NCBI GenBank assembly: GCA_021604005.1
Contig: BQIV01000014.1
Location: 1 to 64,000 of the forward strand
DNA: 64,000 nt
Source of the DNA: Nitrospirales bacterium
GTDB lineage: Bacteria > Nitrospirota > Nitrospiria > Nitrospirales > UBA8639
Reading direction: 5' to 3'
Shown piece after piece: positions 13,503 to 53,095 of this stretch. The notes beneath the pieces are model-generated. The model was given only the letters and a program-made list of their open reading frames with translations. It did not search any database and was not told the DNA's origin. How positions within the stretch are numbered: position 1 is the first letter of the stretch; every line of letters starts with the position of its first letter. The position numbers and the translations under genes are program-made.

Positions 13503-13848
13503 TAGTTTTTTAACTTTTCATGAAGACCTATTCATCTGGGAAGTCCTGGTGTCAGAAGAGCTTTTGCTCAAGAACATTACTCATTCCCTTATTCGTATGC
13601 ATTTCTTATGGTCCTAGGCATTTGCATTCTGCCGGGGTTCGTCCCAGCAGCCGAAACCCTTTTGTTTCGGCAAAAGGACCCAAAACCATTGACGCCCAGG
13701 CCAGGCTCATCGGATGAGCTGAACCCCGGTTAGTGGGGCGGGCTAACTCGCTGCGCTCAAACAAGCCCGCCCAGTATGAGAGGCGTTCACTCAGCAGACT
13801 GGCCTGCAGGCGTCAGGTCATATATATTGAGAAAAAGTTAAAATACAA
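13503..13848. mobile_element. 346-bp MITE with TA target duplication (empty IS110 target)
   Basis: The ends are imperfect inverted repeats: left TAGTTTTTTAACTTTTC, and right (complement) TTGTATTTTAACTTTTTC. TA flanks both sides, and removal restores an intact 90-bp repeat. TA duplication suggests mobilisation by an IS630/Tc1-type transposase. There is no coding capacity. A 9-bp stem (GGGCGGGCT 13736-13744, AGCCCGCCC 13764-13772) encloses a 19-nt loop. In the second copy of this MITE (51675-53068) an IS110 element sits in that loop; here the loop is intact. Confidence 0.75.
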
Positions 13849-51674: not shown

Positions 51675-51773
51675 TTTTTAACTTTTTCAGAGTACCTATG
51701 CTCTTACGCCTGCAGGCCAGTCCGTTGAGTGAACACCTCTCATACTGGGCGGGCTTGTTTGAGATTCTATGGT

Positions 51774-52590
51774 TTATGTCAAGCCTCGTGTGAGGCGGGC
51801 CGGGTCAAACATGGTCTGATAGCGGTGAATGGACCAAGCCGCCCGGGCAATTTTCCGCGCGAGAATCACTAAGGTGGCCGTTGAGCTCCATCCTTGGATG
51901 CGATACGAGTCATAGATGGGTTTCCAGACTTTGGTTTTGACGGCGGACATGGCGGCATTCAAGAGCAACCGGCGCAATTCGGCCGGGCCTCGTTTAGACA
52001 AGCGCCGTCGCCCGCTCTTCTGCCCCGAGTCTTTGGCTCGAGGGTCTAACCCGGTAAAGGCGACAAAGGCATCGGCATTGTGGAACGGCACTCGCTCTAA
52101 AGTATTGGTGAGGCTCATCCCCACCAACGGGCCGACGCCCACAATGGTCTCAACTCGTTGTTGGGCTTGTTGATGGGGTGGGGACTGGGCCTCGACGGCG
52201 AATCAACCGATCCACCTGCCGTTGCTGGGCGGTTGGGGGCCTGTAGGCGCGCAACCCGGCGTGTTCTTGAGCGATCATCCGAGCGAGCAACGTGGCATCG
52301 ACTCGGTCGGTTTTCGCCCGAGCCCCCAGAGCTTTGGCATAGTACCGCGTCTCCATCGGCTTCAAGAGATAAACGGTATGGCCATGGGCATGCGCCAGAT
52401 CGGCCAGCAGCTCATGATACGGACCGGTCGATTCGAGACCAATCCGGCTCCCGGCCGGTAATGTCTTCAGCCAGGCGCACAAGGCGCTGCGCTGATTACG
52501 AATCTGCTGAACCGGCCATCGTTGATCCGCACTGGTCACGACGACGGTGTCTTTGGCCACATCGACTCCCACATTCAAAACGGGTTGCAT
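51774..52590 (-). pseudogene. IS110-family transposase, frameshifted
   Basis: The N-terminal half (MQPVLNVGVDVAKDTVVV, GLESTGPYHELLADLAHAHGH, KTDRVDATLLARM) is a DEDD RuvC-like domain. The C-terminal half (GVGPLVGMSLT, FVAFTGLDPRAKDSGQKSG, RRLLLNAAMSAV) is the Transposase_20 domain with its catalytic Ser region. They lie in different frames; the break falls near 52165-52195 beside a run of Cs (CCCCACCCC on the minus strand), where one base appears extra. The total length equals that of an intact IS110 transposase. A sequencing error cannot be excluded. Confidence 0.88.
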
Positions 52591-52624
52591 ACACGTTGCC
52601 TCCAAAAGTAAAGTTGCCACAATG

Positions 52625-52800
52625 GGGTGGGCCACACCAACGTAAGCTTGTGTCCAAATCGGCGGTCATGAGTGATGCCGCGAGATTCTTCATCGACGTT
52701 GAGGGTGTGGATGGGAGAAGTCTCAAACCGTCTGTCCAGAAGCTGGCAGATGCGCAGCGATGTCCCTCCACCCCCGGTCCCTCTTAGCTTCTCAAGAATG
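52625..52800 (-). ncRNA. Predicted IS110 bridge RNA with readable target and donor guides
   Basis: The non-coding end upstream of the transposase. Minus-strand guides: TCGCTGCGC (52752-52760) equals the left half of the empty target plus core base; GTTTGAG (52722-52728) is the complement of the right half with core (CTCAAAC). CTGCCAG-CTT-CTGG-A-CAG between them forms the stem of the target-binding loop. Further on, AGAATCT (52683-52689) equals the IS end with core, and ACAAG (52649-52653 region on the complement of CTTGT) pairs with the other IS end. This is the order expected of a bridge RNA. Ends are approximate. Confidence 0.75.
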
Positions 52801-53095
52801 AAACGAAAAGACCATACAAGCGCAGCGAGTTAGCCCGCCCCCCAAAATGGTGTTCAGCTCATCCAATGAGCCTGGCCTGGGCGTTCATGGTTTTGGGTCC
52901 TTTTGCCTTCACAACAAAGGGTGCACCCTTCAGGATGCGACAAACAATACACTCGGCCGCCGGGAGGAACCCCGGCAGAGAACAAAAACCAAGGACGATA
53001 AACAGTGCATGTGATGAATGAGGGGATGAGAATGAACAATGTTCTTGAGTAGAAGCTCCTCTGACACTATAGCGAATCTCAATTCGGTCCAGCTA

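Follow-up and report, generated by a model that had tools for sequence, protein, structure and literature searches.

Within the IS110 group, bridge RNAs in the LEs, CT cores, circle promoters and REP targets have been described, as has the layout of a long LE and a short RE (PMC11208160). Guidance by the RNA was shown by experiment for IS621, and ISPa11 and ISPpu10 were shown to have bridge RNAs of their own (PMC11208160). RNA guidance has also been described for IS110/IS1111 elements (PMC11187229), and members of the IS110 family are known to insert into REP sequences (PMC1525189). The element considered here lies in a stretch of 64,000 nt, the window, which comprises positions 1 to 64,000 of contig BQIV01000014.1 of a Nitrospirales bacterium (UBA8639; GCA_021604005.1). 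Judged from its anatomy and its guides, it is very probably (roughly 0.94) a non-autonomous, decaying copy of an IS621-type IS110-group element, which was inserted by an RNA-guided mechanism and whose transposase has been broken since. The sequence-only reading of the window had proposed a possibly new example with a natural target that can be read directly: the target is indeed directly readable, whereas the newness was overstated, the mechanism having been published (PMC11208160, PMC11187229, PMC1525189).

The element, its target repeat and its decay

The IS110-group element occupies the CT of TCGCTGCG-CT-CAAAC, within the apical loop of a palindromic repeat (MITE). Its placement exactly at the CT of the MITE, as originally proposed, is borne out by the junctions, read directly and by script; in both readings, no target duplication beyond the CT cores is found at these junctions. 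The features of the element and of the empty sister site are:

51764..52818, minus strand: IS110-group element body, 1,055 bp, CT cores on both sides (the MITE halves join at these points in ~35 empty copies)
52819..52820, minus strand: left core dinucleotide CT, LT-LE junction (sequence read and script)
51762..51763, minus strand: right core dinucleotide CT, RE-RT junction (sequence read and script)
52150..52590, minus strand: 5' portion of the transposase gene, with a RuvC-like DEDD domain (PF01548), after which the frame shifts (domain match; comparison with intact L025)
51774..52142, minus strand: 3' portion of the transposase gene, in a different frame from the 5' portion and carrying the conserved serine in a Transposase_20 domain, PF02371 (domain match)
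13688..13815, plus strand: sister MITE (palindromic repeat) without an insertion, its apical loop containing the target (hairpin fold, z = -4.3)
13748..13762, plus strand: empty target site TCGCTGCGCTCAAAC (exact 15-mer search)

The repeat is a long hairpin, the apical loop of which is the target. Copies of the element and of the repeat were counted genome-wide by sequence search: roughly 35 further genomic copies have the repeat halves uninterrupted as GCGGGCTAACTCGCTGCG-CT-CAAACAAGCCCGCCC, and TCGCTGCGCTCAAAC, searched as an exact 15-mer, is found 46 times as a perfect empty site in the 4.7 Mb genome (0 occurrences of the reversed-pattern control in the same genome). The empty site of the sister MITE at 13746-13765 has the sequence first ascribed to it, again read directly and by script; a second copy is thus present as claimed, but two MITEs are too few, since dozens exist. 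Many contig ends of the genome (G000: C16, C11, C41, C43, C38, C30) fall inside the repeat, so that collapsed insertions there could be missed.

The LE is long and the RE short, with 228 nt upstream of the ATG at 52590 versus about 10 nt past the stop. Near the element ends only the short ACCATA/TATGGT is present; the long subterminal inverted repeats and the long-RE RNA of the IS1111 type are absent. Relative to the intact L025 (90% identical DNA), a single 137-nt deletion shifts the transposase frame, a break missing from the sequence-only reading; PF01548 and PF02371 are both present in the window element in separate frames and are unsplit in intact relatives. The latter encode 317 aa with invariant D10, E53, D95, D98 and S234, and align with IS621 and ISCro4 over residues 6-310 (E = 1.3e-25 and 6.2e-26, respectively). 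A search of the genome for an intact copy of the element found none; given this and the frameshifting deletion, the window copy is dead on its own. Other IS110-type transposases in the genome are not close relatives, and mobilisation of the broken element by them in trans is only a possibility.

A second remnant in the genome (L021, G000:C29) keeps its RE, at the same CT as in the window element but in a different copy of the repeat; its LE is gone, apparently through a deletion between short GTTGGTGGGG repeats, one in the MITE and one in the transposase gene. In a same-genus genome, the L030 remnant likewise has its RE at this CT of the repeat and has lost both LE and RNA. Copies with unchanged guides at unrelated targets had been named as the observation that would speak against guidance; these two remnants share the CT site, and relatives at other targets carry guides changed to match.

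Guides and fold of the bridge RNA

The bridge RNA and its guides lie in the LE; all four guides are found, by direct reading and by script, where they had been claimed:

52623..52772, minus strand: bridge RNA core, in which the target-binding loop precedes the donor-binding loop (167 bits with covariance model R1, whose training set included this sequence; fold; counts of pairs)
52752..52760, minus strand: left target guide (LTG) TCGCTGCGC, equal to the left target plus the first core base (9/9 match; unpaired in the centroid fold)
52722..52728, minus strand: right target guide (RTG) GTTTGAG, complement of CTCAAAC (7/7 match; unpaired in the centroid fold)
52683..52689, minus strand: left donor guide (LDG) AGAATCT, equal to the RE terminus plus core (sequence; unpaired in the centroid fold; GAATC invariant in the family)
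52647..52651, minus strand: right donor guide (RDG) ACAAG, complement of core plus LE terminus CTTGT (sequence; unpaired in the centroid fold; CAAG invariant in the family)

To assess chance matches, the 228-nt LE was shuffled 20,000 times by dinucleotides. Single guides recurred in 10 (LTG), 567 (RTG), 162 (LDG) and 3,839 (RDG) of these shuffles, the RDG (5 nt) being weak evidence by itself. LTG followed by RTG occurred in 0/20,000 shuffles, as did all four guides in order; the joint fit is improbable by chance, as had been argued.

In the centroid fold, all four guides are unpaired and lie in two internal loops. A position outside such loops had been held out as contradicting the bridge RNA; the guides are found inside, in a fold backed by 20 related LEs. 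On these aligned LEs, the two stem-loops are paired in 98.9% of cells, a value that falls to 37-48% when partners are slid, and compensatory changes occur at four pairs (12 compensatory cells vs 3.5 in shuffles). As most pairs are invariant, the support for the fold is moderate. The energy of the single-sequence fold is unremarkable (z = -1.5) and uninformative by itself; in single-sequence folds, GGGGTGG can also pair with the 3' CCACCCC as another basal stem, which leaves the guide positions unchanged.

Guides and targets in related elements

Elements with a protein identity of roughly 60% or higher, from Nitrospirota and some other MAGs, were taken as relatives; their guides and targets, extracted by one rule, form 21 distinct guide-target pairs. 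In permutations of these pairs, the own-guide fit of the left target is 5.57 vs 3.86 of 8 when swapped and that of the right target 4.29 vs 3.25 of 5 (p = 5e-5 each); the permutation does not remove the relatedness among elements, and p for LT is only 0.03 when it is confined to the six closest elements. The donor guides are nearly invariant, and hence matched to the element ends and outside the reach of this covariation test. Between unrelated target families, namely TCGCTNCG-CT-CAAAC, TTCGACNNG-CT-CAGG and TCAGTCGT-CT-CAGAG, the guides change along with the targets. Length covaries in a single case, L092, which combines a 10-nt guide with a target arm that is longer by one base (9/10 match). 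In L028, L029, L049, L050, L075 and L076, the left target fits only after a one-base shift of register. In these six, TCG stands one base farther from the core than a 9-nt guide predicts, as if a base were bulged.

The target of the six nearest elements is TCGCTNCG-CT-CARAC, and all six sit in repeats of palindromic type. The variable LTG base equals the site base in five of them: G/G (L001, L027), T/T (L025), C/C (L085) and A/A (L093); the sixth, L026, has a G-U wobble with guide U opposite G. Because all four bases occur among the empty sites in the host genomes of L025 and L093 (T in 11/28 in G016, A in 13/41 in G414), the match of the guide base is not forced by the host. Possibly, though this is put forward tentatively, the guides track drift of the host repeat loop (TCGCTNCG, N = G, T, C or A), with lineages having changed the matching guide base; if true, element and host repeat would be a natural series of reprogrammed bridge RNAs in one close family.

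The apical position of the target in a strong palindrome, and the presence of all six close relatives in repeats of this type, would also suit recognition of the hairpin or palindrome by protein contacts, the guide-like matches then reflecting shared ancestry (e.g. captured repeat sequence) and not base-pairing guides. The matches, however, are limited to guide-length stretches, on opposite strands and at loop positions, guides and targets co-vary even across unrelated target families, and the IS621 precedent is experimental (PMC11208160), which together make recognition by protein contacts highly improbable.

Two further sets of loci were observed. Four elements of G318 (L128, L134, L137, L140) have nearly identical bridge RNAs, one in-frame TAG in the transposase and four different targets. 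Three tnp-less model matches, L149, L151 and L158, were considered as solo bridge RNAs of a new element type; this candidate was rejected, the matches being one orthologous remnant in syntenic DNA. The remnant (L151:1501-1621; L158:1501-1618; L149, minus strand, about 930-1100) resembles a target-binding loop, comes from a related IS110 LE and is without a transposase or normal donor loop; it lies at orthologous places of three related genomes in about 81-91% identical DNA, and LTG and RTG differ among the three.

Junction promoter, proposed course of insertion and known systems

Two would-be promoter boxes lie at the opposite ends of the element:

51777..51782, minus strand: TTGACA in the RE, would-be -35 box of the circle-junction promoter (sequence)
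52811..52816, minus strand: TATGGT in the LE, would-be -10 box of the circle-junction promoter (sequence)

By sequence only, joining of RE and LE would give TTGACA-17 bp-TATGGT in the window element. This junction would be the promoter expected for the IS110 group, in which a promoter made only in the circle is known (PMC11208160). The 17-bp spacer to a TATGGT-like box is found in 22/23 elements with both ends, and the spacer is 18 bp in L092. That the bridge RNA was kept for a host function after transposase loss (domesticated, e.g. as a regulator acting on repeat transcripts) might be read from its intactness beside a broken transposase and from the target-loop-only remnant that three related genomes retain at orthologous positions, but is very unlikely: no promoter is evident in the inserted copy, where the junction promoter is split by the insertion, the second genome copy and the same-genus copy have lost the RNA, and recent insertion followed by decay accounts equally well for an intact RNA.

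In the preferred reading, the sequence shows the anatomy, the target, the guides with their fold and covariation, and the deletion; we infer that the RNA was made, that it guided the insertion and that the deletion came afterwards. The ancestor would have left its site as a circle, in which a sigma-70-like promoter, formed where RE and LE meet, would have driven the bridge RNA from the LE. The first internal loop of this RNA would have base-paired with the two strands of the apical-loop target TCGCTGCG-CT-CAAAC in the repeat and the second with the element's own joined ends, enabling the DEDD/serine transposase to recombine target and donor at the CT core; the 137-nt deletion would have broken the transposase later. 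The finding leaves the known mechanism unchanged and adds a Nitrospirota lineage to those in which the target specificity of a bridge RNA can be read. Guide-target rules could be examined in a small natural series, made up of six close elements with one variable guide base and, in a single genome, as many as dozens of empty sites; a set of intact 317-aa recombinases comes with it.

All defining features of the IS110 group (IS621 type) that are checkable by sequence are present; Rfam (Rfam 15) gave no match to the bridge RNA up to E = 1, a look-up that is uninformative on membership. The IS1111 group (seekRNA) shares an RNA-guided DEDD transposase (PMC11187229), but carries its RNA in a long RE and has long subterminal repeats, whereas in the window element the RNA is in the LE and the RE is short. 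Like the window element, ISPa11, ISPpu9 and ISPpu10 (IS110 family, REP sequences) have a fixed insertion point in a repeated palindrome, and ISPa11 also lacks the usual direct repeats (PMC1525189); their repeats and hosts are different. ISCro4 (IS110 family, structure 9t56), compared by its transposase alone, has full-length transposase homology to the intact relatives and is not a close relative. IS621 of E. coli shares the DEDD plus Transposase_20 recombinase, the CT core, the bridge RNA in a long LE, the order and strand of LTG/RTG and LDG/RDG, the circle-junction sigma-70 promoter and targets in palindromic repeats; it differs in its distant protein (E about 1e-25), its target and an RTG match of 4 vs 7 nt here, and the window element differs from it in its broken transposase. 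The mechanism is already known for IS621, and the window element is a clear natural example of it, not a new kind of system.
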